Source of the DNA: Actinomycetes bacterium
Lineage (GTDB): Bacteria; Actinomycetota; Actinomycetes; Streptosporangiales; Streptosporangiaceae
Assembly (NCBI GenBank): GCA_021793235.1
Contig: JAJYTD010000041.1
Coordinates: 1 to 32,975 of the forward strand
Direction: 5' to 3'
Length of the DNA: 32,975 nucleotides
In this document: positions 9,616-31,928 of the stretch, one piece after another
Layout: every line of letters begins with the position of its first letter
Position numbering within the stretch: position 1 is the first letter of the stretch
Position numbers and translations under genes: made by a program
Notes under the pieces: model-generated
What the model was told of the DNA's origin: nothing
Seen by the model: the letters and a program-made list of their open reading frames with translations, nothing else
Databases searched by the model: none

Positions 9616-9629
9616 GGATTCTCCTCCGC

Positions 9630-10606: not shown

Positions 10607-10639
10607 GTAGGAACTACGCCACGAAGGATGGTCTCTTCC

Positions 10640-12726: not shown

Positions 12727-13814
12727 TGGCTGTGCACAAGACCGGGCCTGTGCGCGGGGACCGGTACCAGGTTCTGCCCCCCGACGTGCGCGCCGTGCGC
12801 GCCGGCGGGGCGGCGCTCCTCCTGCACGTGCGCGCTCTCGTGCTGGTCTGCCTGTTCAGCGCCGCCGCACTCGCCGCCGGTGTGGTGTCGCTGGGAATGG
12901 GGGACTACCCCGTTCCCCTTGGTGAGGTCGTGCTGGCGCTGGCGGGCGGCGGCGATCCGATCTCCGCTCATGTGGTGACCGAGATGCGATTGCCGCGTGT
13001 GGCGAGCGGCGCGGGCGTGGGCGCGGCCTTCGCCCTGGCCGGCGCGGTGTTCCAGCGGGTCGTGCGCAATCCGCTGGTCAGCCCGGATGTGATCGGCATC
13101 AACGCGGGCGCCTCAGCGGGGGCGGTGCTGGCCATCACGGTGCTCGGCGGGTCGACCATGTTCACCGTCGCAGGTGCCCTGATCGGCGCGTTCGCCTCGG
13201 CCGCACTGTGTTACCTGGTCGCCTACCAGGGCGGTGTGAGCGGTTATCGCCTGGTACTCGTCGGCATCGGTGTTACCGCGCTCAGCAGCGCGCTCACCTC
13301 CTATTTGCTCACCCGGGCCGAACTGCACGATGCCCAGCGCGCCTCGATCTGGCTCACCGGCAGTCTGGCCAACCGGTCCTGGTCCCATGCGGGCGTGATC
13401 GCCGGGGCTTTACTGGTCTCGGTCCCCGTGGCCGTGATCCTGGCGCGCAGGCTCCGGCTGCTGGAACTGGGCGACGACATGGCGCGCACGCTCGGCATCG
13501 GGCCGGATGGGGCGCGAAGCGCCCTGTTGGGCAGCGGTGTGGTGTTGGCGGCTCTGGCCACCGCCGCGGCCGGGCCCATCGCCTTCGTCGCCCTGGTCGC
13601 TCCCCAGATCGTGCGCCGCCTCCTCAACGAGAGCACCGCCGGGCTGGCCGCCTCCGCCGCGTGCGGCGCCATGCTCACTGTCGCGGCCGACCTCGCGGCG
13701 CGCAGCCTGTTCGCACCCATCGAGCTGCCCGTGGGGGTGCTCACCGCCGTGGCGGGCGCACCGTTCCTGCTGGTGCTGCTCGCACGGGCCAACCGGATAG
13801 GACGAAGTGGATGA
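12726..13814 (+). CDS. FecCD-family ABC permease (second)
   Basis: Protein of 362 aa. Its ATG shares one base with the stop of the first permease (TGATG). After a hydrophilic start of about 35 residues it carries FecCD signatures: LPRVASGAGVGAAFALAGAV, QRVVRNPLVSPDVIGINAGA and GPIAFVALVAPQIVRRLL, with about ten membrane segments. It pairs with the preceding permease. The tight coupling implies one riboswitch-controlled transcript. Confidence 0.93.
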   Translation: MAVHKTGPVRGDRYQVLPPDVRAVRAGGAALLLHVRALVLVCLFSAAALAAGVVSLGMGDYPVPLGEVVLALAGGGDPISAHVVTEMRLPRVASGAGVGAAFALAGAVFQRVVRNPLVSPDVIGINAGASAGAVLAITVLGGSTMFTVAGALIGAFASAALCYLVAYQGGVSGYRLVLVGIGVTALSSALTSYLLTRAELHDAQRASIWLTGSLANRSWSHAGVIAGALLVSVPVAVILARRLRLLELGDDMARTLGIGPDGARSALLGSGVVLAALATAAAGPIAFVALVAPQIVRRLLNESTAGLAASAACGAMLTVAADLAARSLFAPIELPVGVLTAVAGAPFLLVLLARANRIGRSG

Positions 13815-14626
13815 CCCAAAACATCGCCCAGACCGGAGCGCTCTCCGCCCGCGGCCTCACCGTGGGCTATGGGGATCGTGATGTGCTGCGCTCCCTCGCG
13901 CTCGACGTGGAACCGGGGCGGGTGACCGCGATCGTCGGGGCCAACGCCAGCGGCAAGTCCACCCTGCTGCGCGGGCTCGCTCGCATCATGCGCCCCAAGG
14001 CGGGATCAGTACTGCTCGACGGCGTCGACATCGCCAGGATGCCGGCCGCCCAGCTGGCGCTGCGCCTGGGCATGCTCCCCCAGCAGCCCGTCGCACCGGA
14101 GGGGATCAGCGTCGCCGACCTTGTCGGCCGGGGCCGCCACCCCCACCAGCGCTGGTTCCGGCAGTGGTCACCCGCCGACCAGGCCGCCGTGGCCGCGGCC
14201 ATGCACGCCACCGGGATCGGGCATCTCGCCCACAGGCCCATCGACGCCCTATCCGGCGGCCAGCGCCAACGCGTGTGGATCGCGCTGGCGCTGGCCCAGG
14301 ACCCCGACGTCCTCCTCCTGGACGAGCCGACCTCCTTTTTGGACCTGTCCCATCAGGTGGACGTGCTCGACCTGGTGGCCTCGCTCGGTGAAGAGCGCGA
14401 CCGCACGGTCGTCCTGGTCCTGCACGACCTCAACCTGGCCTGCCGCTACGCCGACCGCCTGATCGCCATGCGCGAGGGAGAAGTGCACGCCAGCGGCGCC
14501 CCTTCCGAGGTGGTGACCGCCGAGACGGTACGCGAGGTGTTCGGCCTGGATTGCGAAGTGGTCCCCGACCCGCTGACCTCATCGCCGCTGGTGCTGCCCG
14601 CCGCCCGCCACCGGCGCCACCGCTGA
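13811..14626 (+). CDS. FepC/BtuD-type ABC transporter ATPase
   Basis: Protein of 271 aa. ATG 13811 overlaps the permease stop (ATGA). Motifs in order are Walker A GANASGKST (about 43-51), Q-loop LPQQPVAPEG, signature LSGGQRQRVW (about 148-157), Walker B VLLLDEPTSFLDL (about 168-180) and the H-loop VLHDLNLA. All catalytic elements are intact. It powers import through the two FecCD permeases. The protein ends in a His/Arg-rich tail. Confidence 0.95.
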   Translation: MTQNIAQTGALSARGLTVGYGDRDVLRSLALDVEPGRVTAIVGANASGKSTLLRGLARIMRPKAGSVLLDGVDIARMPAAQLALRLGMLPQQPVAPEGISVADLVGRGRHPHQRWFRQWSPADQAAVAAAMHATGIGHLAHRPIDALSGGQRQRVWIALALAQDPDVLLLDEPTSFLDLSHQVDVLDLVASLGEERDRTVVLVLHDLNLACRYADRLIAMREGEVHASGAPSEVVTAETVREVFGLDCEVVPDPLTSSPLVLPAARHRRHR

Positions 14627-14760
14627 ACAGCATCGCCCCGCAGCCCGGCGGTGCACCCGTACTACGCCTGCCCGTCATCTGCGATCGCGCCGCGTAGGCC
14701 GCGGGCGGCCGTGCGTCCTCTCATCCTCGTCCTCGGCCGTATTCGGAGCAGTCGGAAGGT

Positions 14761-15296
14761 TCACCGTGCGGCGTGGGCTGTGGTGAAGTCGGCCCAGGTG
14801 ATCATGGGGCCGGTGTAGCGGCCGACGGGGTCTTCGGGTCCGGTATCGAAGATGCTGGCATAGCCGCGTTCGGCGTAGCCGGGGCCACCCTCGGCGGGCA
14901 GCCGCCCCCACTCTTTGGCCAGCGCCGCCGCCAGGAACAGGCCGCGGCCGCCGGGACGTTCGGGGTCGGGCAGCATGACGCGGGCGGCGGTGCGCGGCCG
15001 GTCGGCGCGCGGGCCCTGGTCTACTACCTCCAGGTGGATCACCCCATAGACCAGGCCGACCAGGCTGGCAAAGACCTCGCCGCCCGCTGGCCCGAAGCGG
15101 TGTAGGCGATGGCGTTGGTGAAGAACTCGCTGACCACCAGTTCCACCGCGTCGGCCACGTCGGGGAAGGGCCGCAGCAGGGCACGGGCCCACAGCCGCGC
15201 CTGGCGGCACTCCTCCGACCGGCCGGGGAAGGTCCGGGCGGCTTTGAGGGTGTAGAGACCGGTGTCGGCGGCACCTTCTGTGCTGTCGGCACCCAT
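14761..15296 (-). pseudogene. RsbW-like ATP-binding protein, frameshifted
   Basis: From ATG 15296 one frame reads TGLYTLKAARTFPGRSEECRQ and then ELVVSEFFTNAIAYTASGQ, the first part of an HATPase_c anti-sigma-type ATPase including the N-box (ELVVSEFFTNA). The frame then changes near 15085-15095, and the second half (GGEVFASLVGLVYGVIHLEVVDQGPR, later RGLFLAAALAKEWG) is in another frame to 14761. Adding one base after the Gln codon would restore a QxGGEV reading. It is either a decayed gene or an indel error. Such proteins sit next to XRE/DUF397 pairs across actinobacteria, and its start overlaps the upstream gene's stop (TGATG). Confidence 0.82.
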
Positions 15297-15658
15297 CAGG
15301 CCACCGCCGACAGGCGAGCGCCCGCCTCCCGGGGCTGCGGGCGCCGGGCCATCAGGTCGAGCACCTGTGCGTCGGCCCCGCTGAGGAACCGCGCGGCCAG
15401 ATCGGGCCGGTCGGCGGCCACCTGGTCGTTCTTCCCCCACATGAACCACCATTCGCCGCCGTGCTCCACCGCCAGCACCGCGACCCGGTGGCCGCCCGAG
15501 GTGCGAAGCGCATAGAGGACCGGGTGATCGGAGCCCGACAGGGCGATGAGGGCGGGAACGCCGAGTTTCCGCAGTTCAGCGGCGAGATTAGTGAGGAGCG
15601 AGCGGCGGGTGGTGCCGGATGTGGCCTGGCAACCGCCCGTGGATACCTGAGAGGACAT
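15296..15658 (-). CDS. Small conserved protein of the XRE/DUF397 cassette
   Basis: Protein of 120 aa from ATG 15658, with GGAAGGA just upstream. It has no membrane segment. Its middle reads RRSLLTNLAAELRKLGVPALIALSG and then VAVLAVEHGGEWWFMWGKNDQVA, an alpha/beta pattern with aromatic residues that I cannot assign to a named enzyme. The C-terminal RRPQPREAGARLSAVA is echoed by a fragment at about 26.72-26.76 kb. It is translationally coupled to the ATPase gene and divergent from the XRE gene. I infer a helper of the regulatory cassette; the function is unknown. Confidence 0.75.
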   Translation of the reverse strand: MSSQVSTGGCQATSGTTRRSLLTNLAAELRKLGVPALIALSGSDHPVLYALRTSGGHRVAVLAVEHGGEWWFMWGKNDQVAADRPDLAARFLSGADAQVLDLMARRPQPREAGARLSAVA

Positions 15659-15704
15659 GGGAGCTTCCTTCCTCCACCCCACAAGGAGTAGACGTGAATG
15701 ATTA

Positions 15705-15787
15705 CTCTCTATAGTCTTAGACAGGAATTATTCTCATTGCAAGCGATAGAGAGAAATCCTTCACAGAACCTTGAGTGGATCTAAGAT
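15705..15787. promoter_or_regulatory. Divergent promoter region with inverted repeat
   Basis: This region is much more AT-rich than its surroundings. For the rightward XRE gene, TTCACA (15760-15765), a 16-bp spacer and TAAGAT (15782-15787) stand seven bases before ATG 15795, a leaderless arrangement. For the leftward genes, TTGCAA (minus strand, about 15737-15742), a 17-bp spacer and TAAGAC form a candidate promoter. CTCTCTAT (15705-15712) and ATAGAGAG (15746-15753) form an inverted repeat that could be an operator for the XRE protein. Confidence 0.5.
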
Positions 15788-15794
15788 GCTTCCC

Positions 15795-16646
15795 ATGCAG
15801 CGGACCTACAGCCCAAGCGTGCGACGTCGGCGTCTCTCCAAAGAGCTGCGCAACCTGCGCGAAGCGGCAGGGTTCACTGCGGCGCAAGCCGCCAAGAAGC
15901 TCGGATGGGCGCAATCCAAGATCACCAAGCAAGAGATCGGGCAGACCAAGACCATCACGACTAGTGACATCGATGCCCTACTCAACCTGTACAAGGTCAC
16001 GGACACTCATAAGCGCGAAGCCCTGAAGACGTTGGCACGGGAGGCCCAGGAGCGAGGCTGGTGGGCGAAGTTCCGTGACGTATACCCCGGGATCCTGCCC
16101 GACTTTGAAGCCGAGGCATCGGTTATCCGCACCTTCGAGGTGCAGGTGATCCCCGGCCTGTTGCAGACGCCCGAGTACGCCGAGGGCATTTTCCGAGGAG
16201 CCGACCTACTCGATGATGGGACGATCAACCGACGTGTCGAATCGCGCATGCAACGCCAGGTGATCTTGAACCGCCACAAGCCTCCGACGTTCCAAGCAGT
16301 CATCGATGAAGCGGCTCTACGCAGGACTGTGAGCGGCCGAACGGTGATGCGTGAACAGATCGAACATCTCTGCCACATGGCGGTGCGTCACAACATCAGC
16401 CTCTACGTGCTGCCTTTCAGTGCAGGAGCACACGCAGGCACGGCCGCGCCGTTCACCATTCTCGACTTTCCTGGTCCACTCGACCAATCCATCGTCTATG
16501 TCGAAGCTGTCACCAACGATCTGTACCTGGAGGAAACTGAAGACCTCGACCGGTATAACGTGGTTTACGGCAAGCTACAGAACTCGGCGATGAGTCTGCC
16601 CGATTCCGTAGCCTTCCTAAGAGAGCTCGCCAGATCCTTGGAGTAG
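15795..16646 (+). CDS. XRE-family regulator with DUF5753 domain
   Basis: Protein of 283 aa from ATG 15795; in-frame starts at 15786 and 15771 exist, but the -10 box overlaps them. Residues about 8-65 are an HTH_XRE domain (RRRRLSKELRNLREAAGFTA, AQAAKKLGWAQSKITKQE). The rest is a DUF5753 domain with FEVQVIPGLLQTPEYAEGI, the conserved R-x7-RQ region (SRMQRQVILN), and the late FTILDFPGPLDQSIVYVE. This is the actinobacterial regulator class that includes WhiJ-like proteins and usually partners DUF397 proteins. Codon use is less GC-biased than in the genes to its left. Confidence 0.93.
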   Translation: MQRTYSPSVRRRRLSKELRNLREAAGFTAAQAAKKLGWAQSKITKQEIGQTKTITTSDIDALLNLYKVTDTHKREALKTLAREAQERGWWAKFRDVYPGILPDFEAEASVIRTFEVQVIPGLLQTPEYAEGIFRGADLLDDGTINRRVESRMQRQVILNRHKPPTFQAVIDEAALRRTVSGRTVMREQIEHLCHMAVRHNISLYVLPFSAGAHAGTAAPFTILDFPGPLDQSIVYVEAVTNDLYLEETEDLDRYNVVYGKLQNSAMSLPDSVAFLRELARSLE

Positions 16647-16917: not shown

Positions 16918-17035
16918 TCGGCGGGTGGTGGATCGCCCTCAGTGTCGTCGCTTCGCGTCGACCGTGCTCTGGTTTCCACCGCGGGGGCCCACCGGCGGCC
17001 ACACGGGCACGGTCGATGCGGGGCCGCGCCCCCGG
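16918..17035. repeat. 118-bp direct repeat, left copy
   Basis: This stretch recurs at 26761-26878 in the same orientation at a constant offset of 9843 bases. By eye there are no gaps and about five mismatches. It lies after the DUF397 terminator and just before the island genes. Similarity stops sharply on both sides. I recognise no transposase, tRNA or coding sequence in it. It could be a duplicated intergenic piece belonging to the cassette, or an att-like or homologous-recombination footprint. Confidence 0.9.
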
Positions 17036-17162: not shown

Positions 17163-18134
17163 TCAAGCGGTCGCGTCCGTGCGCGTTTGCTCTTGAGATG
17201 AAGTTCGTTGCCGCGTGTTCTCCAAAGCTTCGGGTAACGAAACGCAGCGGAAACCGGTGTCGTCGTCGCGCATCTTTGCTGATGCGTCATTGAAGGCTGA
17301 GGGCCTAGCACGGTCGAAAGGGCTGGTGAAGGCGCTGCCTTTGAGTTCGTGGCGGCCGGGTTCAGTTTCAGTGGCGCACCACTCCCAGACGTTGCCGCAC
17401 AGGTCGTAGACGCCGTAAGGGCTAACGCCGCTGCGGTAGCAGTTGCCGGGTGTGGTGGTACCTGGACCGTTGTCGCGGACGTTGCACTTGGCGGGTGTGG
17501 GCTGGTTTCCCCATGGGTAAACGTTACCGCGGGTTCCACGGGCGGCTTTCTCCCATTGGTGGCTGCTGGGTAGGGACTTACCGGCCCATGTGGCGTAGGT
17601 GTCGGCGTCGTGCCAGGTCACGAAGACGACGGGGTGGTCTTGTGGCTCGTCGGGACAGCGTCCGTCGGCCCAGTGTAGGGGCGGGCGGTGGTCGGTGGCA
17701 GCAATGAAGCGCGCATAGTCGGCGTTGGTGGTGGGGTAGACGTCGATGTAGAAGGCGGGGAGCCAGACCGGCTCGTTGTTGGCGCCGGCGAGGAATATCC
17801 CCGCGTGGACCAACGTCATGAGCTTGCCGTCGACCGGATGCCGGAGCTGATTGTTGGAAGCGCCGGTCTCGGCTTGTTCGGCCGGTTTCAGTATTGCCAC
17901 GTCTCCGATGAGCAGGGCGAATCTGGCTTGGACGTCGGGGTCGGATTGGGCAAGGGAGGTATCGAGCGCGGCTTGGTTGACCGGGCGCGGGTGTATGGTC
18001 TCGCCACCGGCTTCCCACTTGGAGATCATGCGATCGCTAACACCGAGGTGGGCCGCGAACGCTCGGAGACTCATCCGTTTGGCCTCACGTAAGGCCCGGA
18101 CTTCCCAGCCGGACCACCGTGGCACTGTCGTCAC
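17163..18134 (-). CDS. HTH-SUMF1 fusion protein
   Basis: Protein of 323 aa from GTG 18134, with GAAGGAG seven bases upstream; an earlier start at 18161 is possible. Residues about 5-75 are an XRE-type helix-turn-helix (VRALREAKRMSLRAFAAHLG, SDRMISKWEAGGETIHPRPV). From about 105 a SUMF1/FGE-like fold begins: FYIDVYPTTNADYARFIAA, PVVFVTWHDADTYATWAGKS, WEKAARGTRGNVYPWG, YGVYDLCGNVWEWCATE and a final DTGFRCV. The late region lacks the paired active-site cysteines of formylglycine-generating enzymes, so a binding or regulatory role is likelier than catalysis. It is divergent from the radical-SAM operon and may regulate it (inference). Confidence 0.88.
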   Translation of the reverse strand: MTTVPRWSGWEVRALREAKRMSLRAFAAHLGVSDRMISKWEAGGETIHPRPVNQAALDTSLAQSDPDVQARFALLIGDVAILKPAEQAETGASNNQLRHPVDGKLMTLVHAGIFLAGANNEPVWLPAFYIDVYPTTNADYARFIAATDHRPPLHWADGRCPDEPQDHPVVFVTWHDADTYATWAGKSLPSSHQWEKAARGTRGNVYPWGNQPTPAKCNVRDNGPGTTTPGNCYRSGVSPYGVYDLCGNVWEWCATETEPGRHELKGSAFTSPFDRARPSAFNDASAKMRDDDTGFRCVSLPEALENTRQRTSSQEQTRTDATA

Positions 18135-18196
18135 CCATGGCTCCTTCACTGAGACGCTCACGAGTGAGAGTACCGACTAACGCGGAGCCATTTCGA

Positions 18197-18979
18197 CTAC
18201 AGCCGTTCGGGGGGAATATCCGCGTACTGCTTGCCCAGCGTACGCAGTGTGGGATGGTCAGCCGGCCGGTTCACGTCGTTGATCGCACTAACAAGACGGA
18301 CTCCCACAGCGGCGTTGGTAGCGAATACCGCGTCCACGTTGGTCAGATCGGCGAGCGTAATCGGTGCGGTGGTGACGTGCTCCTCCCTGGCCTGGTTGAT
18401 CAACCGCATCGTCACGCCCGGTAGATAATCGGCTCGAGGCCACACGACATGATCGCCCTGCACAAAGCCGATGTTGGAGGTGGCGACCTCGGAAAGAACG
18501 GCGTTGGCGTCAGTGAACACCACGTCGTCGAAGCCGTTGCGCTGGGCGATCCGCCGTAAGCGCAACGCACCGAACAGGCCGACGTGTTTAACCTCGGGCA
18601 TGTCGCGCCGGTAACTCGCGGACTGGAGCCGCAGGCCGGGCAACACTCCCTGGGGGGCAGGCCGAGTGGTGACGAGGATGTGTGGTATGGCGTCGGCGCC
18701 GAGGTGCCCGAGTTCGAGGGTTGGATCGAAGATGGTGACGCGGACGATGATCGGCTGGCTGATGTCGGCCACGACGCGGCGGACTAGGTAGCGGACCCGT
18801 TCGGGGTCGAGGTCGGCTTCGAACACCCGGCGGCAGTCGCGCATCAGGCGCTCTAGATGCAGGGATAGTCCGCGTACGCGCTGGTTCTCAATGCGCATTG
18901 AGGTGAAATGCCCGTAATTGGTCAATGCCAGGGCCTTGACCAGGTTGACATCGGCCGCAACGCCGTTGAGTTCCGCCAT
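18197..18979 (-). CDS. Class IV aminotransferase-like PLP enzyme
   Basis: Protein of 260 aa, full length for the family. It begins with ALTNYGHFTSMRIENQRVRG and LSLHLERLMRDCRRVF. It has the PLP-lysine region EVKHVGLFGALRLRRIAQRN (the Lys of KHVG, about 135), then DDVVFTDANAVLSEVATSNI with the conserved Glu and SN, and a C-terminal phosphate-cup segment (ADLTNVDAVFATNAAVGV). Members are branched-chain or D-amino-acid aminotransferases or aminodeoxychorismate lyases; the substrate cannot be read from sequence. It lies 62 bp upstream of the HTH-SUMF1 gene in the same direction and is probably co-transcribed with it. Confidence 0.88.
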   Translation of the reverse strand: MAELNGVAADVNLVKALALTNYGHFTSMRIENQRVRGLSLHLERLMRDCRRVFEADLDPERVRYLVRRVVADISQPIIVRVTIFDPTLELGHLGADAIPHILVTTRPAPQGVLPGLRLQSASYRRDMPEVKHVGLFGALRLRRIAQRNGFDDVVFTDANAVLSEVATSNIGFVQGDHVVWPRADYLPGVTMRLINQAREEHVTTAPITLADLTNVDAVFATNAAVGVRLVSAINDVNRPADHPTLRTLGKQYADIPPERL

Positions 18980-19183
18980 ATCCCCCAGTCTGGCACGCGA
19001 CCTGCTGGAGTGAGCACCGACCGGGACGCAAATTCAGCGAAAGTTCGGCGATTCGGCGGTGATGAGTCGGTTCCGCACCGTGGCGATGTAGGGAAGCCTG
19101 GAGTTCACAGAAGCTGATGGTGCCCGATTCGGGTCCACATCAGATACGGGCCCAGGGCAGAACTAGGAAAAGAGGGAGCAGAT

Positions 19184-20251
19184 GTGCTGAGCGACCGGGC
19201 GCACGCGGAGCGGCTGTCACGGGAGTGGGGTGTCCACGCGGACGACATCATGCTGATCGCGCTGAACTCCTGCGGGTTACAAGCGGACATCGACGTATCG
19301 CGCCTACGGTTCCGGATCAGGCTCGACTCCCGGCCCGATGAGCAGCTGTACATGATCTTGTCCCTTGGCCGGGCTCACTCACCCTTCGAACTCGTTGACC
19401 ACGAGATCCGGCTCAACGGGAAACGAATCGCGATCATCGATTCCGCCGAGGAAGATGATGCCGTCCTTGGATACTGGCGCAAAGATCGAAGAGTTTTGAC
19501 GCTGAACTCCAATTCCCGAAGTCAGTGCATCGGGTGCGTGTTCTGCCCCAACACTCTCGAGGATGCGTCAGATCCTCGCCTGACAGCCTTGGACGATTTG
19601 CACTCCTATTTCTCCGCACTCGTAGAGAACTTCTCGTTGGCAGATATGACGGAAGTCGAAAGGGTTACGGTCTGCACCGGATGCTTTAAGCATGAGCACT
19701 TGGCCTTGCAGCATTTGCAGCAAGTACGTGAAGCCATGACTGAGCAAAATTGTTCAGGAATTATCCACTTTCTGTCCAGCATCCTCACTACCACTCAAGG
19801 AATGGATGCCGCAGCGGATATTAGCCCGTTCCACCTCACACTCACCGCCGAATGTTTTACCCAGCGCGGCGTGATATTGAAGGAATCCAAGGCGAATTTG
19901 ACGCCAGCTGAGATGGTCCGCGTGCTGGGTGACGCCGCTGAGCGAAGCATCATGACAGATTTTACCTATATTGTCGGCCTCGACTCGCCAGAGGTCGCGT
20001 TGCAACATTTGGCCGACTTCGTGCCCGTGACGACAACATTCCCTCGATTCCAGATCTACCAGTCCCACAACAACTTGATGGATCTATTCATCGCTGACGG
20101 GGCCCGGGACATCGATTTTTATCTGTACATGCGCCGAGAGATCGAGGACCTATTCGGCCCCACGGGACTTCGCCCGAAGCCGTGGGAGAACTATCGGCCA
20201 TTGTGGTACTTCACCTTTGCCGACGAGCCACTACGCGGGGAGCGGATCTGA
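19184..20251 (+). CDS. Radical-SAM-like protein with CX2CX2C cysteines
   Basis: Protein of 355 aa from GTG 19184 behind AGAGGGAG. Cys115, Cys118 and Cys121 (QCIGCVFCPN) look like the iron-sulfur cluster loop of radical SAM enzymes, but the spacing is CX2CX2C, not the canonical CX3CX2C. Later parts fit the barrel: VERVTVCTGCFKHEHLALQH, the FHLTLTAECF strand, and DFTYIVGLDSPEVALQHL. The roughly 100-residue N-terminal part has no recognised domain. I see no SPASM-type C-terminal cluster. It heads the island operon. Part of the gene (19741-19800) is only 26/60 GC. The reaction is unknown. Confidence 0.75.
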   Translation: MLSDRAHAERLSREWGVHADDIMLIALNSCGLQADIDVSRLRFRIRLDSRPDEQLYMILSLGRAHSPFELVDHEIRLNGKRIAIIDSAEEDDAVLGYWRKDRRVLTLNSNSRSQCIGCVFCPNTLEDASDPRLTALDDLHSYFSALVENFSLADMTEVERVTVCTGCFKHEHLALQHLQQVREAMTEQNCSGIIHFLSSILTTTQGMDAAADISPFHLTLTAECFTQRGVILKESKANLTPAEMVRVLGDAAERSIMTDFTYIVGLDSPEVALQHLADFVPVTTTFPRFQIYQSHNNLMDLFIADGARDIDFYLYMRREIEDLFGPTGLRPKPWENYRPLWYFTFADEPLRGERI

Positions 20252-21394
20252 ATGTCTGTGCCGTCCCGTGTAAGACAGGTCGTTGTTCATCCCCTCCCCG
20301 CACTGCCGCAGCACAGCGCGAACATACTGCCCGAATGGGCGCAGCCGGCGATCCGAACGCCAATTGCGCAGCCGTGGCCGGAGAATCAGAACCGGTTTGT
20401 GATCGGTGTCGTCGACGACCTCGGCAATACAGGCTGGTTCGGACCGGTCAGCGCCAGCGTGGCCGCGATCATCCGCGACCAGATCATGCCTTGGGCCATG
20501 GGCGTGGAGGTGCGAGCATGGCGTTCGGCCGCCACCATTCGACCACAGGGACGTCACCGCTCCGGATCGCACGTCAGGCTGGCGATCTCGGCGGTCGAAC
20601 TGGCGCTGTGGGATCTCCGCAGCCGGATCCTGAACCTCGCGATTGGCGACCTGATCGGTGGTCGGGCCCGCACTGTCGTTCCCGCTTATGCTACGGCTCT
20701 GGGGATCGACATCGACCACCCGGTGGCTCCGGAGGTCGCGTCGTGGCTTGTTGAGGAAGGGTTCTGGGGCCAGAAGTGGAGGCTTCCCGGCTATGATCGC
20801 GGCGAACCACCACAGGCTGATGCTCGACGGCTGGAACGTCTACGGATAGCCATCGGGGATGCCGCCCGACTGTGCGTAGATGCTGGCAAGCGCTGGAATA
20901 CCGGCTACGCGCGGCAAATGCTGCCGGTGCTCGCCGAGCACCAAGTGACCTGGATCGAAGAGCCTGGCATGGTCTCCGACAACGACCTGGCCCGGTTCGG
21001 CCTTGTCCATGCCGCCGGAGAACACGACTACGACTCTGACGACCAGCTACTCACTCTGACTTGCGGAACGGTTCAGGCGTGGCAGCCCGATCCTTCCTGG
21101 AACGGTGGCCTAGCACACAGCGTCCGCATGGTGGAGCTTGCGGCGGCGTTGGGCATCCCATGCTTTCCACACGGTTCGAATCTGCCCGCCGCGCTGCACT
21201 TGGCCAGCTTGATGCCCAGCGAAGCCATTCCTGCCGTCGAGTACCACCTGAGTCTGGAGCCGCTGCGCCAAGCGGTGTACACGGTCCCCCTGATACCCGA
21301 TCGCGGCGCATTCGCCCTCACTGATAGGCCGGGGCTGGCAGCGCCCTACCGCCTTGACGAGACAAACGTGCCTGGGAGCCATCATGCTGCCTGA
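20252..21394 (+). CDS. Enolase-superfamily (mandelate racemase-like) enzyme
   Basis: Protein of 380 aa, starting right after the radical-SAM stop. The barrel part has AISAVELALWDLRSRILNLA (about 111-130) and GQKWRLPG (Lys175-x-Arg177 where KxK is usual). Metal ligands are probably Asp210 (CVDAGKRW), Glu236 (WIEEPG) and Glu257 (AAGEHDYD). Asp280 (WQPD) and His307 (FPHGSN) form the Asp/His dyad of the mandelate racemase group. Such enzymes abstract a proton next to a carboxylate and then racemise or dehydrate, often sugar acids. The substrate is unknown. The Arg in the KxK motif and Gly in place of Asn after Asp210 mark it as divergent. Confidence 0.88.
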   Translation: MSVPSRVRQVVVHPLPALPQHSANILPEWAQPAIRTPIAQPWPENQNRFVIGVVDDLGNTGWFGPVSASVAAIIRDQIMPWAMGVEVRAWRSAATIRPQGRHRSGSHVRLAISAVELALWDLRSRILNLAIGDLIGGRARTVVPAYATALGIDIDHPVAPEVASWLVEEGFWGQKWRLPGYDRGEPPQADARRLERLRIAIGDAARLCVDAGKRWNTGYARQMLPVLAEHQVTWIEEPGMVSDNDLARFGLVHAAGEHDYDSDDQLLTLTCGTVQAWQPDPSWNGGLAHSVRMVELAAALGIPCFPHGSNLPAALHLASLMPSEAIPAVEYHLSLEPLRQAVYTVPLIPDRGAFALTDRPGLAAPYRLDETNVPGSHHAA

Positions 21395-22046
21395 ATATCT
21401 CCGTGCGGTCTGTTTCGACATTGGCGGCATCCTGGTGCGCATGCCGCGAGGTTTTCTGGCCGAAGAACTCGCCGACACACTGGGAATCACCCCTGACCTC
21501 GTACGGCATCTGCTCATCGAGCACGGAAAACGGCGTCGCAGCAGTTCAAAGGTTCTCTCTCTCGCGCTGGCAACAGGGTGCGACTTACCATGGGAAGTTG
21601 ACCGCATCGAGGCCATCCTGCGGCAGCGACACCATGACATTGCCCACCCCGTGCTCTACCCCGACGCCATCCCGACGTTGAAAAAGCTGCGGTCCACAGG
21701 GTGGCGTATTTGCTTCCTGTCCAACGCGATAAGCGACGCATCCGATCAACCGCGACCGCCCTACTTCTCCTTCGCGGAGGTAGCTGTCCATAGCTGGGAG
21801 ATCGGTTACTGCAAACCGGAGATCCAAGCATTCCGCGCCATTGAGCAACGAATGAAATTGGCTCCGCATGAAATCGTCAGCGTCGGCGACTCGCTGCGAT
21901 GTGACGTGTTAGGCGCGCTGGACGCGGGTTGGTCAGCTGTCTACCTACCGCGCACCAGCACGCCCTCTCCGCTGCCGCACCAAGTTTCGACGATCTCGTC
22001 CCTGCCGGAACTGCTCACCCTTCTGCCGTCTGTTCGCGGCCGGTAA
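21384..22046 (+). CDS. HAD-superfamily hydrolase
   Basis: Protein of 220 aa from ATG 21384, overlapping the enolase-like gene by 11 bp. The four HAD motifs are present: CFDIGGILV (nucleophile Asp12, with Gly in the second-Asp position as in the FDxGG subgroup), CFLSNA, the KPEIQAF lysine, and VGDSLRCDVLGALDAGW. A helical cap is inserted after motif I. Members are mostly small-molecule phosphatases. In this operon it may dephosphorylate a sugar-phosphate intermediate (inference). Confidence 0.9.
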   Translation: MLPEYLRAVCFDIGGILVRMPRGFLAEELADTLGITPDLVRHLLIEHGKRRRSSSKVLSLALATGCDLPWEVDRIEAILRQRHHDIAHPVLYPDAIPTLKKLRSTGWRICFLSNAISDASDQPRPPYFSFAEVAVHSWEIGYCKPEIQAFRAIEQRMKLAPHEIVSVGDSLRCDVLGALDAGWSAVYLPRTSTPSPLPHQVSTISSLPELLTLLPSVRGR

Positions 22047-22065
22047 GTAGATATGCGAGCCAAGA

Positions 22066-22710
22066 ATGATACCATTTCATGAGTCCGCCTTACTACCCAC
22101 TTGTGGCGGTTGGGTCCCACACGCACGCCCCGATCCCATCACGGGGCTGGTGGCATTTCCTGATTTCCACGCTGTGTTCGGCCGCCATCTGGTCGATAGC
22201 TTGGTATCCGGTTTTTCAGTCGGAGTCGCGATCGGCGACGTGGACGATCTCAAGAGCTACGTCGAGGATTCCAATGAAGGCGACCCGGAATGCTTTGGAC
22301 ATTTGGCTGGAAACGCCCTAATGGCGCGCTGCGGAGCAGTCGGTACGACATGGTTCCGCAAACAGCTTTTTTCGGCCGGCTGCATGTCCACTTTCGGTGG
22401 TGACGAGATAATCATCGCGGCCGCTGTCATGAATTCTGCGAAATTCAAACCCACCATAGTCACTCTGAGGGACCGCTGCCGTCAATGGCTTCCGCGTACG
22501 GTTTCGTTCGGTATCGCGGTGGTTACACCCGACACCCCGGGCCTGAGCGAACACCTCCATGCTCCGCTCAGGATCGCAAATCTCGTCCTCGCGGGAGTGG
22601 ACAGGGCGCTGTTCACTCATAAGTCTGCTCGGCGGCGCAACGAAGGAGAAGAAGGCTTTGTCGTTGATATCGACCTTGATCTAAGGACGGTCGGCCATGT
22701 CATTTCCTGA
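22066..22710 (+). CDS. Stand-alone minimal GGDEF-domain protein
   Basis: Protein of 214 aa made almost entirely of one GGDEF-like domain: DPITGLVAFPDFHAVFGRHL (about 23-42), GVAIGDVDDLKSYVED with the metal-binding Asp region (about 53-68), HLAGNALMARCG, FGGDEIIIAA (motif GGDEI at 111-115), VSFGIAVV, and LAGVDRALFTHK near the end. There is no sensor, receiver or membrane part, and no RxxD inhibitory site before the motif. It could make cyclic di-GMP or another nucleotide product, or bind nucleotide without catalysis. Its place inside a metabolic operon is unusual. It starts 19 bp after the HAD stop with only a weak ribosome site. Confidence 0.85.
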   Translation: MIPFHESALLPTCGGWVPHARPDPITGLVAFPDFHAVFGRHLVDSLVSGFSVGVAIGDVDDLKSYVEDSNEGDPECFGHLAGNALMARCGAVGTTWFRKQLFSAGCMSTFGGDEIIIAAAVMNSAKFKPTIVTLRDRCRQWLPRTVSFGIAVVTPDTPGLSEHLHAPLRIANLVLAGVDRALFTHKSARRRNEGEEGFVVDIDLDLRTVGHVIS

Positions 22711-23164
22711 ATTGCCCGTTGATGATCAGACCACGGTGGAAGCAACAGGACACGTGAGATTCATCTGCGAGCGTCCACTCATCGTCTTATCCTACGCCGC
22801 TCCCATTGACATTAGTCGAGGCCACCGCTACCGCGTCGAAGCGGACCACAGTTCAGCGGTGTCACGCGTCGTGTTCTCCCTCGGTGGGCGGGCCGCGTTG
22901 CGCCCGCCCACCTCCTTACCATTGAACGAGAATCAATCGGTGGCCTTGCGCCTCCGTGCGCTTCCGTCCCGCCGATCACGTCGGATTCCTCACGATCTGT
23001 CCCGAGCCCTCGCCGAGGCAGGCGCTTCGTTAGAACACCTCAATGAGCCAGCCGCCCAGCACTTGCTGCTGATGGTGACCGAGGCACGCGATCCCGTGAT
23101 CCGCGCCCAGCGTATCCAGATCGCCATCGAAGCCACCCAGCAGGCAGGTGAGGTCGGGCCATGA
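22697..23164 (+). CDS. YdeI/OmpD-associated-like protein
   Basis: Protein of 155 aa, overlapping the GGDEF gene by 14 bp. The C-terminal half (RRIPHDLSRALAEAGASLEH, then a helix ending ARDPVIRAQRIQIAIEATQQ) follows the YdeI/OmpD-associated pattern of a PxDLxxAL start and an EAR..RxxRI helix. The N-terminal half is beta-rich and may be a diverged DUF1905 domain. Family function is poorly known. It is translationally coupled on both sides, so it likely belongs to the same pathway. The assignment rests on pattern recognition and is moderate. Confidence 0.55.
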   Translation: MSFPELPVDDQTTVEATGHVRFICERPLIVLSYAAPIDISRGHRYRVEADHSSAVSRVVFSLGGRAALRPPTSLPLNENQSVALRLRALPSRRSRRIPHDLSRALAEAGASLEHLNEPAAQHLLLMVTEARDPVIRAQRIQIAIEATQQAGEVGP

Positions 23165-25344
23165 CGTGGAGTCGAAAGGTGTTGACGGCCCACGAGAGCG
23201 TCAACAGCGGTGATGTTGACAGGGCCAGGCGGGCGCTTGATTATCTCTGCCTGGCTCAACTGTATTTGCGTGATAACGTGCTGCTCAATCGGGCACTTTA
23301 TCCAAGCGACATCGTGGAATCGCCCACCGGCCATTGGGGCACCTGCCCGCCTGTCAACGCGGTGCTATCCGCGCTCGGCCCTTACCGTCATCATCTGGAC
23401 GGTATTGACGTGCAAGTCGTGCACGGCGGCGGCCATGCCGGGCCGTCCGCGCTATCCCACGCCTGGCTGACCGGAAGTCTCGCGCATGTCACCGACGATC
23501 TGGACCACAACCCGGCCGGGCTGCAGCGTCTGATCGCCGGCTTTCCGCACCACGACCGATTCGGTGGTGAGATCACGCCACTGTTGCCCGGTCACTGCTA
23601 CATGGGCGGGCAGTTAGGGGCAGCGCTACCAACAGCCCACGGCATGGCGCTGGACATGCCGAACCGCTTGGTCATCGCGTTGATCGGGGATGGCGAATGC
23701 GAGACAGGCGCTACGGCCGCAGCATGGCTCGGCGCACACGCGCTCGCACAACGGAGCGAGCATGGCCGAGTCCTACCGGTGATCTTGCTCAACGGTTTGC
23801 GCATGGGCGGGTCGTCGCTGCTGGCTGGCCTCACGCTACCTGATCTCCGGCAGTTCTTAGCGGGATTGGGCTATCAGGCGATAGTCACCAGGGAAAGCGA
23901 CACCGCAGCCATCCGGGAGGCGGTCAGGGAAGGGCTGGCTGGTCTGAAGCCGCTGCAGCACGGTCCGTCCACCGTCGTCGCAGTGACCATTCCCAAAGGC
24001 CATGGCGCCCCAGAATCCGTGGGTGGCAGGCGGATTATGGGGACACCGTTGGTACACAAGACCCCGTTGATTCGGCCCTCGCAGGACAAGGAAGAGTTTG
24101 GCGCGCTCGCCGACTGGCTCGCCGGTTACCGGCCGCACGAACTATTCACCGCCCGAGGAAGTCCCACATCCGCTATCGTCCGCGCGCTGGGTACGTCCCC
24201 GGCAACGTCGCCACCTCAGACTGCGCCACCGCGCAACTGTCTTGCCGCATCAGCCAGTGTTGCCAATTCCGTCCGCAACCGTGGTGTCGAGTTCGGCTCG
24301 GCAATGGCACAGGTACTGAAGGATCTCCATGAGGCGTACGGTCTCCGGGTGTTCAGCCCGGACGAACTTAGTTCCAACCACATCCGCTTCGGCGATGAGA
24401 TCCCTGACTGGATCGTCGAGGTGCTAAACGAGGAGTTGTGCCACGCCTGGGCACAGGGCTATCAAGAGACCGGACGGCGCGCCCTAGTTGTGTCCTATGA
24501 GGCGTTCGCGCCCATCGTGGCCAGCCTGCTCGCTCAGCACCTGATTTATCGCCGCCTTACGACGACAGCCGGCCGACCACCGATGCCCAGCATCGTATAC
24601 CTGCTGACCAGCCTCGGCTGGCAGAACACGATCAGCCATGCCAACCCCGGCCTCATCGATATGGCCCTCGCGACGCGCGATCCATCCGTGCACGTCTACA
24701 CGCCCGCAGACACCGCACGTACCGCAGCGGCTGTGACCTTTGCGGTACGCAAACTCGGCCGGTGCAGCCTGGTAGTCAGCTCCAAACATCCCATGCCGGC
24801 TCACCCCCTGGACACCATCGAATCCGAACTCCGGGACGGCTATGCTATTTGGCCCCACATCGCCGACGATGACCAGCCCGATCTGATCCTGCTCTCCGCA
24901 GGTGATCTTCCAGCGCGTCAACTGACGAGCGCCGCTGCCGCTGTGAAAACCGCCCGCCCCGAAACGTCATTACGCTATATACACGTCCATGATCTCGTCT
25001 GCTTGGGTGCTCCCTCGATTCGGCCGGACGCGATTTCGGACGCCACGTTCACCGCGCTGATGCCACCGGATGTGCCCGTGCTCGCCGCTGTACCGTGCCA
25101 CGCCACAGCGGTTCACGCCCTATTCGGCGAGCGCGGCATGGCGAACCGCCTCACTGTACGAGGGTGGCGCACCCCCAGCCGTCCGCTCCCACCGGACCGA
25201 CTCCTCGAACACGCCGAACTCGACATCACCAGCCTCACCACCACCGCGCTCTCACTACTCGACCAACGCCCACCCCGCGATCGAAGGAGGGCGACTGGCG
25301 ATCACTCGACCACGCACAGCTTCGGTGTCAGCCGAGGAATTTGA
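23161..25344 (+). CDS. Divergent phosphoketolase-family ThDP enzyme
   Basis: Protein of 727 aa (phosphoketolases are about 800); ATG overlaps the previous stop by 4 bp. Clear XFP landmarks are: LAQLYLRDN; GHWGT (57-61); VVHGGGHAGPS; the ThDP motif GDGECETG (176-183); PVILLNGLRMG; PKGHGAP and HKTPL (278-303); FSPDELSSN; LNEELCHAWAQG with the probable catalytic Glu; SYEAF; and LLTSLGWQNTISHANPG. Phosphoketolases split xylulose-5-P or fructose-6-P to acetyl phosphate. Here the loop normally reading HNGFSH is shortened by about three residues, keeping only the second His (His493). That makes a different reaction, such as isomerisation or epimerisation, possible. I recall related proteins being annotated as xylulose-5-phosphate 3-epimerase but cannot verify this. 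Confidence 0.85.
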   Translation: MTWSRKVLTAHESVNSGDVDRARRALDYLCLAQLYLRDNVLLNRALYPSDIVESPTGHWGTCPPVNAVLSALGPYRHHLDGIDVQVVHGGGHAGPSALSHAWLTGSLAHVTDDLDHNPAGLQRLIAGFPHHDRFGGEITPLLPGHCYMGGQLGAALPTAHGMALDMPNRLVIALIGDGECETGATAAAWLGAHALAQRSEHGRVLPVILLNGLRMGGSSLLAGLTLPDLRQFLAGLGYQAIVTRESDTAAIREAVREGLAGLKPLQHGPSTVVAVTIPKGHGAPESVGGRRIMGTPLVHKTPLIRPSQDKEEFGALADWLAGYRPHELFTARGSPTSAIVRALGTSPATSPPQTAPPRNCLAASASVANSVRNRGVEFGSAMAQVLKDLHEAYGLRVFSPDELSSNHIRFGDEIPDWIVEVLNEELCHAWAQGYQETGRRALVVSYEAFAPIVASLLAQHLIYRRLTTTAGRPPMPSIVYLLTSLGWQNTISHANPGLIDMALATRDPSVHVYTPADTARTAAAVTFAVRKLGRCSLVVSSKHPMPAHPLDTIESELRDGYAIWPHIADDDQPDLILLSAGDLPARQLTSAAAAVKTARPETSLRYIHVHDLVCLGAPSIRPDAISDATFTALMPPDVPVLAAVPCHATAVHALFGERGMANRLTVRGWRTPSRPLPPDRLLEHAELDITSLTTTALSLLDQRPPRDRRRATGDHSTTHSFGVSRGI

Positions 25345-25619
25345 GCGGCACGGCAACGCCGCGACCGTCGCGCATGTCCATCTGCGCCGAAGATGCCACG
25401 CTCTCCAGCCGGTCATGGCCGAGGCCACCGATTTCGATACCATCGTTACGCTCTGCTACGCGCCGCGAGATGACGAACACTCGATTGAGCACCCATAGCC
25501 CGTGCGGAATGTGCCGTGAACTTCTCAACGGCTACGCACCCGACCTGCGGATACTCATTCCTACGGATCCGTACGATTCCCTTTTGCCAGCCAAGTTCCG
25601 CTATCCTCAGAACACGTAA
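25295..25619 (+). pseudogene. Cytidine-deaminase-like gene, multiple frameshifts
   Basis: Pieces of one cytidine/blasticidin-S-deaminase-like protein appear in alternating frames. AEEFERHGNAATVAHV is in one frame. ICAEDATLS, with the catalytic CAE, is in a second. AEATDFDTIVTLCYAPRDDE returns to the first. SPCGMCRELLNGYAPDLRIL, with the zinc PCxxC, and LLPAKFRY are in the second to 25619. GAAGGAGG (25283-25290) precedes a CTG at 25295 as the only plausible start, overlapping the phosphoketolase-like gene by 50 bp. Compared with the family, about 25 residues before CAE seem to be missing. Three shifts in about 120 bases suggest true decay, unless the sequence is poor here. Confidence 0.7.
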
Positions 25620-25629
25620 CGAGGTTACG
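25615..25629 (+). promoter_or_regulatory. Hairpin covering methyltransferase ribosome site
   Basis: CGTAAC and GTTACG form a perfect 6-bp stem around GAG. The loop and first stem base supply the GAGG that serves as the Shine-Dalgarno site for the methyltransferase start at 25632. The stem also contains the TAA stop of the deaminase-like frame. Such a structure could make translation of the last gene depend on ribosomes arriving from upstream. The role is inferred. Confidence 0.4.
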
Positions 25630-25631
25630 AA

Positions 25632-26435
25632 GTGCGCTACAACCCGGACGAGCTCTTCCGCTCCACGGCTCCCTACTACGCGCGATACCGGCCCGGGTAT
25701 CCGCAAGAGTTTTTCGAGCACCTTGTTGCGCGCTTCGCACTCAACGGCACCCAGCAGATCCTGGACCTGGGCTGTGGCACCGGCCAGATCGCCCTGCCCC
25801 TAGCACCACACGTCGCCCGCATTCTTGCCGTTGACCCTGAGCCGAGCATGCTCACCGAAGGTCAACATCTGGCCACGGAACGCGGTATCCACAACATCGA
25901 TTGGCTCGCCGGTGACTCCTACCGACTGCCCGAACTTGCTCTCCCGGAACTGACGCTGGTCACCATGGGTGCCGCGTTCCACTGGATGGACCGTGATGGC
26001 GTCCTTCAGGACCTTGACCAGCTCGTTCTACCCGGCGGCGCTGTGGTGATCGCTAGCGGCGGGGCGCCCGAGACCCAGACCCCACCGCCGTGGAACGACA
26101 CCATCACCGCTGTTCGCACAAAGTATCTCGGACCCGCTCGACGCGCTGGCTCCGGCACCTACAGCCATCCCGAAGAACGCCACACCGACGTGCTACGTCG
26201 CTCCCCTTTCTCGAATGTGGAGGTTGCTGAATGGAACTGGACACTGGAACGCGACCTTGATTCACTCGTCGGACTGCAGTTCTCTTTCTCCTTTTCCGCG
26301 CCTGTCCAATTCGGCAGTGAAGAGCAGCGTGCCGCGTTCGAATGCGACCTCCGGAACGCTCTGACTAGAGAGTTCCCCTCTGGCGCATTCCGGGAACACA
26401 TACGCACCGAAGCGCTCATCGCCACACGCCCCTGA
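25632..26435 (+). CDS. Class I SAM-dependent methyltransferase
   Basis: Protein of 267 aa from GTG 25632. The start NPDELFRSTAPYYARYRPGYP is typical of UbiE/Ycgj-like methyltransferases. SAM motif I is LDLGCGTGQIALPL (about 45-58), followed by the acidic VDPEPSM, GDSYRLPE, and motif post-I/II VTMGAAFHWMDRDG. The substrate is not evident. It is the last gene of the rightward island operon and is likely to act late in the pathway. Confidence 0.92.
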   Translation: MRYNPDELFRSTAPYYARYRPGYPQEFFEHLVARFALNGTQQILDLGCGTGQIALPLAPHVARILAVDPEPSMLTEGQHLATERGIHNIDWLAGDSYRLPELALPELTLVTMGAAFHWMDRDGVLQDLDQLVLPGGAVVIASGGAPETQTPPPWNDTITAVRTKYLGPARRAGSGTYSHPEERHTDVLRRSPFSNVEVAEWNWTLERDLDSLVGLQFSFSFSAPVQFGSEEQRAAFECDLRNALTREFPSGAFREHIRTEALIATRP

Positions 26436-26548: not shown

Positions 26549-26763
26549 TCACCCTCGCAGCACTCGGTCGGCCGGGGTGACAGAGGCCGGGATCGGCGGC
26601 CGCCCCAGCCGCTCCTGGCGGCAGTGGTCCGACCGGCCGGGGAAGGTCCACTCCGCCTTGAGGGTGTAGAGGCCGGTGCTGGCGGTGTCGTCCGTGCCGC
26701 CCCTGTCATCGTTCATCAGGACACCGTCGACAGGTGAGCGCGCGATCCCCGAGGCTGAGGCCG
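26549..26763 (-). pseudogene. Remnant of a second ATPase/small-protein pair
   Basis: From ATG 26716 leftward a 55-codon frame reads STGLYTLKAEWTFPGRSDHC, closely matching the start of the RsbW-like ATPase at 15296. It loses similarity after about 35 residues and stops at 26549. Rightward of 26716 the same strand encodes RPQPRGSRAHLSTVS and a stop, matching the C-terminus of the small protein at 15296-15658, including the TGATG overlap. So this is a truncated paralogous copy of the cassette's leftward half. Its right edge abuts the second copy of the 118-bp repeat. Confidence 0.8.
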
Positions 26764-26878
26764 ACGGGTGGTGGACCGCCCTCAGTGTCATCGCTTCGCG
26801 TCGACCGTGCTCTGGTTTCCACCACGGGGGCCCACCGGCGGCCACACGGGCACGGTCGATGCGGGGCCGCGCCCCCGG
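26761..26878. repeat. 118-bp direct repeat, right copy
   Basis: Partner of 16918-17035, same orientation, ungapped, about 96% identical by eye. Together the copies bracket the HTH-SUMF1 to methyltransferase gene set plus the cassette remnant. Recombination between them would remove 9843 bp. Confidence 0.9.
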
Positions 26879-31016: not shown

Positions 31017-31928
31017 TCAGCGAAGCGCGTCGGCGACGACCTCTGCGGCCTCGGCGATGAGCGCGTCGTCGGACTCGGCGTCCTCGCTGTCCCGGCTGGA
31101 CAGGACCGCCAACACGATCGGCTCACCGTCCGGGGGCCACACCACGGCGATGTCATTGCGCGTCCCGTAGCGCCCGCTTCCGGTCTTGTCGCCGACCTCC
31201 CAGTCGTCGGGAACCCCCGCGCGGATCACGTCGTCGCCGGTCGTGTTCTCCAGCAGCATCTCCCGAAGCAGGGTCCGTTCGTCCTCGGGCAGGGTGTCGC
31301 CGAGCACGTACTCGCGCAGGTCCGCGGCCAATGCCTCCGGCGTGCTCGTGTCTCTGGTGTCGCCAGGAGTGGCCTCGTTCAGCTCGGTCTCTTCCCGGTC
31401 CACCTGGGTGACATCGTCGCCGATCCCCACCAGGGCGTCCTGCAAGCCTTGCGGCCCACCGAGTTCGCGGAACAGCAGGTTGCCGGCGGTATTGTCGCTG
31501 TACCGGATGGCGGCGTCGCACACCTCCAGCACGGTCATCCCGGTGTCGACGTGCTCTTCGGTGATGGGCGAGTACTCCACCAGGTCCTCGTCATCGTAGG
31601 TGATGACCTCTTCGAGTTCCTCCATGGAGCGGCGCTCCATGACCGCGCCGCAAGCCAGTGGTTTGAACGTGGACGCGTAGGCGAACCGCTCATCGGAGCG
31701 GTAGGCGATGTCGCGGTCGGTGCCGGTGTCCACGGCATAGACGCCGAGCCGGGCGTCGAACTCCTCTTCCAGCCGCTGGAACTGTGCCTCGTGCTGTGCC
31801 GCGTCCGCGTGGGTCTCCGCCTCAGGTTCGGCTTCGGGAGCCGCTGTCGTCGCACAGCCCGCGAGCAGCCCCACAGCGAGCGTCGCCAAGGCCGTGAACG
31901 CGGCGCGGCGAGCAGGTCTGTTCAGCAT
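31017..31928 (-). CDS. Class A beta-lactamase lipoprotein
   Basis: Protein of 303 aa from ATG 31928 behind AGGAAGG. A signal peptide ends in the lipobox LLAGC (Cys25), so the enzyme is probably anchored outside the membrane; an acidic linker follows. Catalytic motifs are complete: STFK (86-89, Ser70 region), SDN (144-146), the omega-loop Glu in ETELNEA (Glu180), and KTG (248-250) followed by SGRYGTRND. It should hydrolyse penicillins and perhaps other beta-lactams; the spectrum cannot be judged. It is divergent from a LysR regulator, which suggests inducible expression. Confidence 0.95.

Follow-up and report, generated by a model that had tools for sequence, protein, structure and literature searches.

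What does a compact run of ten genes with an unusual mixture of enzymes encode, and do all ten belong to one system? The question is raised by contig JAJYTD010000041.1 (assembly GCA_021793235.1) of an Actinomycetes bacterium of the family Streptosporangiaceae, which we analyzed over its full 32,975 nucleotides and refer to as the window. A first-pass annotation had placed ten genes between positions 17163 and 26435 and proposed that they form an undescribed small-molecule pathway. All ten open reading frames (ORFs) were confirmed. Six of their assignments were borne out by Pfam (SUMF1-HTH, Aminotran_4, MR_MLE, Hydrolase, XFP and methyltransferase), and those of the radical-SAM-like, GGDEF and YdeI-like proteins by motifs, relatives and folds; the predicted deaminase is not intact. 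Our analysis indicates that positions 19184–26435 probably hold one copy of an orphan biosynthetic cassette that is widespread; this copy would be a mosaic, gained by horizontal transfer and since partly worn. The cassette is a conserved unit of seven genes, which encode a radical-SAM-like protein (rSAM; SAM, S-adenosylmethionine), an enolase-superfamily enzyme, a HAD-family hydrolase, a GGDEF protein, an OmdA/YdeI-like protein, a phosphoketolase-family enzyme (XFP) and a methyltransferase (MT). An uncharacterized radical-SAM-like family, a diverged phosphoketolase subfamily, an enzyme of the mandelate racemase/muconate lactonizing enzyme (MR/MLE) type and a GGDEF protein are joined in this unit.

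Recurrence of the seven-gene unit

The rSAM protein was searched against plasmid, phage and viral-contig records, and its alignment against genome contigs; rSAM, the enolase-superfamily enzyme, HAD, XFP and MT were taken as the core. ORFs of the other loci were chosen by homology, their starts being approximate, and core-gene presence in 80 loci, some of them cut by contig ends, was scored by family models at thresholds of our own choosing. The duplicates L001–L003 were left out of the 80-locus counts, L007 (a near-copy of L006) out of the 51-locus figures, the window out of the NUDIX tally, and L012, with an in-frame stop, out of alignment A2. The latter is a subset of 58 rSAM loci; L006, L008–L011 and L022 were dropped between A2 and A3.

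The rSAM family was found at 71 loci in genome contigs, mostly from Streptomyces, and also in Nocardia, Actinomadura, Actinoplanes-type, Arthrobacter, Saccharopolyspora, Salinispora, Geodermatophilus, Nocardiopsis and Treponema, with distant relatives in archaeal, Patescibacteria, Nitrospinota and Bacilli bins. It is also present in eight plasmid records, six of which were inspected; among the eight are Nocardia farcinica pNF1 (71.5%), several plasmids of Streptomyces and one of Mycobacterium intracellulare. All five core genes are present in 52 of the 80 loci, and they lie on one strand in 50 of 51 non-duplicate loci (window included); the span has a median of 7068 bp. The distance matrices of the core proteins correlate with r values of 0.76–0.95, those involving XFP being lowest (0.76–0.87), and none of 300 permutations gave a value as high for any pair. 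The gene grouping is far beyond chance: rather than being scattered singly, the homologs have the same neighbors in dozens of genomes, and on plasmids too, as the proposal of a shared pathway had predicted. That proposal is supported for the seven genes that recur together and does not extend to the SUMF1-HTH, aminotransferase and deaminase genes, which do not belong to the unit. We found no description of the cassette in the open-licence literature searched, which is weak evidence.

Comparisons among genomes of the class and among plasmids point in the same direction. rSAM occurs in 4 of 296 class genomes (window included), and in each of these XFP lies no more than about 3.1 kb from it; a phosphoketolase of some kind (E 1e-60) was found in 128 of the 296, and the two best class XFPs after the window's own (409.5 and 400 bits) sit in rSAM-bearing genomes. 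All five plasmid records with GGDEF relatives bear rSAM. The 12 plasmid records with XFP (E 1e-40) include seven rSAM-bearing ones, which are the best matches, and five without rSAM, 28.5–31.4% identical; the M. intracellulare rSAM plasmid is not among the 12. For the enolase-superfamily enzyme (E 1e-20), the top five among the 25 listed of 32 plasmid records bear rSAM and the other 20 do not. The fifth of these (31.9%) is barely above the non-rSAM ones (26.5–31.1%) in that list of 25, from which three rSAM plasmid records are absent.

Some of these data weigh against reading the genes as a co-inherited unit. At the thresholds used, 28 of the 80 loci lack at least one core gene: four lack only XFP, two only MT and one only HAD, one has rSAM, HAD and XFP, three have rSAM and MT, L046 (with a partial rSAM) falls below every core threshold, and 16 have rSAM alone. 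The rSAM-alone loci are 13 distant relatives outside the actinobacteria (archaeal, Patescibacteria, Bacilli and other bins) and three short or cut loci (L004, L005, L027). Compared with the window XFP, the cassette XFP of class genome G072 scored 211.5 bits, below many ordinary phosphoketolases. The distance correlations, like the NUDIX contrast described below, also partly reflect shared descent of related cassette loci.

The unit occurs in several layouts. In the window and in Nocardia the order is rSAM-enolase-HAD-GGDEF-OmdA-XFP-MT, and in the Streptomyces-type layout GGDEF and OmdA are fused and a PhyH gene stands ahead of MT. Two further layouts, in some members of which single genes are missing, run rSAM-XFP-enolase-OmdA-HAD-MT-creatininase-PhyH-YrdC and rSAM-enolase-OmdA-HAD-MT-PhyH-YrdC-XFP-PhyH. 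Layouts other than the GGDEF-bearing ones mostly carry YrdC in place of GGDEF: among the 80 loci, 21 have GGDEF without YrdC, 34 have YrdC without GGDEF, 24 have neither, and only L062 has both. This locus, from a Thaumarchaeota bin, is an eleven-gene run (5135–16311) of HAD, MT, creatininase, XFP, rSAM, a weak OmdA-like ORF (21 bits), PhyH, an ATP-grasp-like gene below cut-off, enolase, YrdC and GGDEF. It is possibly the fullest form of the cassette, and bin contamination is a possible source of its archaeal assignment.

Other arrangements were noted around divergent rSAM relatives. Two Patescibacteria bins (L070, 8016–9975; L074, 2452–4405) have an rSAM relative, a methyltransferase and a split pair of genes for a thiamine diphosphate (ThDP) enzyme, decarboxylase-like by sequence, and no phosphoketolase. 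Eight loci with a distant rSAM relative (L078, at 11062–11583, and L063, L072, L073, L075, L076, L079 and L080), from Saccharibacteria, other Patescibacteria, Bacilli and Micrarchaeota bins, have a GrpB/UPF0157 gene adjoining it or close by; one member of this gene family was scanned. In Treponema lecithinolyticum (L065, 9968–17530), rSAM, XFP and HAD occur together with a 366-aa protein and with genes that resemble ABC-2 exporters in sequence; this could perhaps be a minimal secreted version of the cassette.

Predicted enzymes of the cassette

The rSAM gene (19184–20251, plus strand) is assigned by predicted fold and cysteine motif. No curated Pfam or NCBIfam model, PF04055 included, matched its product above cut-off; the sub-threshold matches were XylR_N (Pfam, E 0.028) and a MerR model (NCBIfam, E 0.08), and a profile search against PDB sequences gave only weak matches to unrelated proteins (E ≥ 0.09). 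The AlphaFold2 model (pLDDT 90.3, pTM 0.90) has the partial TIM barrel of radical SAM enzymes plus an extra N-terminal beta region. In the VIA ranking, in which rows within 1 Z count as tied, the top row was lipoyl synthase 4u0p (Z 13.6, rmsd 4.0 over 240 residues), and all 50 displayed rows are radical SAM enzymes by title; radical SAM enzymes also lead the 50 Foldseek rows (5exj, E 5.1e-5), which include some other barrel enzymes. The canonical motif for the radical SAM cluster is CX3CX2C. Here a CX2CX2C motif (Cys115, Cys118 and Cys121), kept in all 79 family members, takes its place, and because of this spacing we call the protein radical-SAM-like. The terms CX2CX2C and radical SAM occur together in two papers of the open-licence literature searched. 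The model thus shares its fold with members of the superfamily such as lipoyl synthase, PylB, MqnE and viperin, but the protein differs from them in its CX2CX2C motif, its N-terminal beta region and its lack of a Pfam match, and it has only 8–16% identity to the radical SAM rows. The modeled fold points to a relative of the radical SAM superfamily, with [4Fe-4S]-dependent SAM cleavage as a predicted activity. The rSAM gene of L012, from an Actinophytocola bin (10001–11065), carries one in-frame stop.

XFP (23161–25344, plus strand) has the XFP_N, XFP and XFP_C domains in order, all over the Pfam cut-offs (192.8, 97.7 and 63.8 bits). Its motifs GDGE, YEAF, GHWG, GxGH and N-x-x-(S/T)-H, the residues of which have ThDP-related and catalytic roles in phosphoketolases, are present in the window XFP and also, apart from minor substitutions (GDAE in L011, YDAF in L062 and YESF in L018 and L036), in the 11 further members displayed. 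These domains and motifs are shared with the solved phosphoketolases 8io8, 9cd3 and 3ahc, suggesting that cassette XFPs belong to the phosphoketolase family, for which cleavage of xylulose 5-phosphate or fructose 6-phosphate would be predicted. The family is nevertheless diverged: the window XFP shares 30–35% identity with most of the other class phosphoketolases that were found, and the 12 displayed cassette XFPs have HK (HR in L011) in place of the HQ of 8io8 and 9cd3, with a short deletion ahead of the N-x-x-(S/T)-H motif. Against NF003616, which has a cut-off of 777, the window XFP scored 630.6 and fell short, as did the four others tested, while the pNF1 relative in L006 passed with 864.2. 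The last 25 or so residues of the window XFP are unlike those of its relatives.

The enolase-superfamily gene (20252–21394, plus strand; PF13378 112 bits, PF02746 34.7 bits) encodes an MR/MLE dehydratase or epimerase. It has the N- and C-terminal MR_MLE domains and the residues of the mandelate racemase subgroup: the lysine, the three Asp/Glu/Glu metal ligands and the histidine are kept in 48 of 48 family members, and the aspartate of the His-Asp dyad in 47. Enzymes of this subgroup act on alpha-hydroxy acids, and the retention of these residues therefore suggests an alpha-hydroxy acid substrate. The HAD hydrolase (21384–22046, plus strand; PF00702 46.2 bits) has an ORF that opens at a TTG at 21354, the ATG at 21384 being the likelier start. 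Its nucleophilic aspartate in motif I is present in 46 of 46 members, and the second aspartate of the DxD motif is glycine in all 46; because of this glycine, phosphatase activity is probable but not certain.

The single-domain GGDEF (nucleotide cyclase-like) protein (22066–22710, plus strand) was recognized by its motif and by the modeled fold of a relative, and PF00990 had no match in it at E 1; among relatives, L011 fell below the cut-off for this model (15.3 vs 23.8 bits) and L062 passed (49.8 bits). The family motif is GGDE in 17 of 18 members and GGDD in one, and both aspartates of the GDVD segment are present in all 18. In Foldseek, the model of the fused GGDEF-OmdA relative in L016 matched diguanylate cyclases and GGDEF domains (best E 1.2e-7), with about 190 of its 385 residues aligned to GGDEF proteins and no fold assigned to its OmdA part. 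By motif and modeled fold, the window protein would belong with GGDEF proteins, and synthesis of cyclic di-GMP would be its predicted activity. The small OmdA/YdeI-like protein (22697–23164, plus strand) matched PF13376 below threshold (E 0.022, 15.2 bits vs 25.6), and alignment with the fused relatives showed that its counterpart is joined to the GGDEF protein in Streptomyces-type loci. The last gene encodes a class I SAM-dependent methyltransferase (25632–26435, plus strand; PF13649 55.2 bits).

Genomic setting and state of the window's copy

In 1-kb windows the GC content is 0.57–0.65 at 15–26 kb, compared with 0.65–0.73 at 1–15 kb and 0.67–0.72 at 26–32 kb, and GC content at third codon positions (GC3) is 0.61–0.78 in ten island genes, an XRE gene among them, versus 0.84–0.87 in four flanking genes. 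Two direct repeats of 117 bp, 97% identical (16919–17035 and 26762–26878, plus strand), flank the block from the SUMF1 gene to MT immediately outside its ends; of 43 candidates in the draft genome, 40 were scored and none proved to be a further copy. A second direct repeat pair of 95 bp and 81% identity lies near them (15189–15283 and 26603–26697) and may perhaps represent remnants of a regulator gene. The simplest reading of the block and repeats is insertion into, or beside, a duplicated regulatory locus. Because of the low GC3, the plasmid-borne copies elsewhere and the direct repeats, the copy in the window looks horizontally acquired. Its ORFs are tightly packed, with 0 bp between rSAM and enolase, overlaps of 11 bp between enolase and HAD (41 bp if HAD starts at TTG), 14 bp between GGDEF and OmdA and 4 bp between OmdA and XFP, and a gap of 19 bp between HAD and GGDEF.

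Candidate phage and defense origins were rejected. rSAM was in no phage record and no viral contig was confirmed, and PADLOC gave no system-level match, only weak HTH matches for the SUMF1 protein and, for the methyltransferase, a partial match to mad2 (55.5 bits). A gene that resembles class A beta-lactamases in sequence lies further downstream (31017–31928).

Three genes of the block stand apart from the cassette. The HTH-SUMF1 protein, with FGE-sulfatase and HTH parts (17163–18161, minus strand; PF03781 131.5 bits), has relatives in 12 plasmid records (E 1e-40), none of which is among the eight rSAM-bearing ones; one close relative lies near the partial cassette L046. The class IV aminotransferase of the PRK09266 subfamily (Aminotran_4; 18197–18979, minus strand; NF006734 299.9 bits) had no relative among the other cassette loci searched. 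Some match to it was found in 96 of 150 family genomes, 35 besides the window's at 44–59% identity, and genome G250 has both it and rSAM, about 1.4 Mb apart, all of which suggests that it is probably a passenger. The cytidine-deaminase-like sequence between XFP and MT (25380–25619, plus strand; PF00383 E 0.041) is a broken remnant: its CAE and PCGMC motifs lie in one frame and the intervening stretch is readable in another. No relative of it was seen in other cassette loci. With the aminotransferase outside the conserved cassette and the deaminase gene broken, neither an amination nor a deamination step is supported.

The window's rSAM, enolase, HAD and XFP are nearest to Nocardia, and its MT to the Streptomyces-type loci L047, L016, L015, L019 and L020 (0.60–0.63; Streptomyces, Streptacidiphilus and Actinomadura). 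For this reason, the 3' end of the window's cassette seems to have a different history, and the copy would be a mosaic. Family models found neither PhyH nor YrdC in its gene run.

Product type, rival explanations and known systems

We infer that the cassette's enzymes act together to produce a single small molecule, starting from a sugar nucleotide or a phosphorylated sugar. The radical-SAM-like enzyme could rearrange or join carbon on a phosphorylated substrate, XFP might cut or transfer a two-carbon unit via ThDP, the enolase-superfamily enzyme would dehydrate or epimerize an alpha-hydroxy acid, HAD would take off phosphate, and the methyltransferase may cap the product. GGDEF-OmdA would either use a nucleotide in the pathway or control it. 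The sugar-phosphate chemistry proposed at the outset omitted the GGDEF and YdeI-like proteins and, in relatives, PhyH, YrdC and creatininase. No synthase domain of nonribosomal peptide or polyketide type was among the Pfam matches of the ten window proteins, a search that short precursor peptides lie outside.

Neighboring genes offer a hint to the product. NUDIX boxes were found in 22 of 50 cassette loci vs 0 of 20 control stretches from other class genomes (Fisher p 1e-4, overstated since the loci are related). A pyrF gene for orotidine 5'-monophosphate (OMP) decarboxylase and a GntR-type gene stand beside the cassette, divergent from it, in four Nocardia loci (L006, 9895–11475; L007; L046, 7884–9349; L049, 8218–9697). 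In the genomes of L046 and L049, the two of these four that were tested, another pyrF passes the cut-off at a different place, and the L014, L036 and window genomes each have one pyrF above it. A nucleoside hydrolase gene is present in L006, L007 and L046. Because NUDIX genes lie near many relatives and some Nocardia have a second pyrF, a nucleotide-type product is hinted at, and a nucleotide-like antimetabolite is the type we tentatively favor, doubtful as it is; the cassette-adjacent pyrF is possibly a resistant target copy. We consider rather unlikely the bolder proposal of a new nucleotide-derived class of antimetabolite. Its scaffold would be assembled by a radical-SAM-like enzyme of non-canonical type together with a phosphoketolase turned to a new purpose, a GGDEF protein would serve as a biosynthetic nucleotide enzyme, and the Nocardia product would hit OMP decarboxylase and be countered by the second pyrF.

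Several observations tell against such a product or its manufacture in the window. The 20 NUDIX controls are ordinary chromosomal stretches, and the closest relatives L006, L013 and L049 have no NUDIX box. The second pyrF is found only in Nocardia, where N. shimofusensis (L013) has one pyrF over the cut-off and none beside the cassette, and it could serve plasmid or host biology. With its deaminase broken, its XFP end altered and PhyH and YrdC not found, the window copy may be inactive; alternatively, it may make a simpler product.

Enolase-superfamily and phosphoketolase enzymes are common in catabolism, MR/MLE dehydratases among them, and an APC-type permease (family F17, named by sequence) occurs in 11 loci. 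These facts would suit an operon that imports an unusual sugar acid and degrades it by dehydratase, phosphatase and phosphoketolase. However, the conserved core has no permease, and the presence of GGDEF, PhyH and YrdC alongside radical-SAM-like and methyltransferase enzymes is ill-suited to a degradative route, which we regard as improbable. We likewise give little credence to a pathway for a cofactor or for modification of macromolecules rather than for a secreted metabolite. Several bins, archaeal, Patescibacteria and others, have a methyltransferase gene adjoining a distant rSAM relative, and in such lineages secondary metabolites are considered rare; however, these relatives may have another function, and the patchy, partly plasmid-borne distribution of the elaborated cassette, with rSAM in 4 of 296 class genomes, is unlike that of a cofactor pathway. 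A full ten-gene pathway, with the class IV aminotransferase adding an amino group and a deaminase taking part, would account for the presence of all ten genes within one low-GC block between direct repeats, yet the aminotransferase and SUMF1 genes do not travel with the cassette and the deaminase is broken, making this reading very improbable.

The preferred reading remains a biosynthetic cassette; as many Streptomyces and further actinobacteria have it, its product can be sought directly. If it is true, phosphoketolase and GGDEF enzymes would gain new roles, and the pyrF duplication opens the target hypothesis to immediate test. Nucleoside pathways of the polyoxin/nikkomycin type resemble the cassette in having a radical SAM step, a phosphatase and a 2-oxoglutarate-type oxygenase, the last in many cassette relatives, but no enolpyruvyl transferase was among the recurring cassette-neighbor families looked at, and polyoxin/nikkomycin-type clusters are not known to encode a phosphoketolase, an MR/MLE enzyme or a GGDEF protein. 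A second parallel is the Photorhabdus 4'-thiothymidine locus thmA-C, which consists of three genes, for a radical SAM enzyme, a relative of nucleoside kinases and a nucleotide triphosphatase that acts in self-resistance (PMC12691670). By analogy, NUDIX enzymes near the cassette might give self-resistance as that triphosphatase does. Both systems place a radical SAM or radical-SAM-like enzyme beside nucleotide-handling genes; thmA-C has only three genes, and the conserved unit of the cassette has seven.

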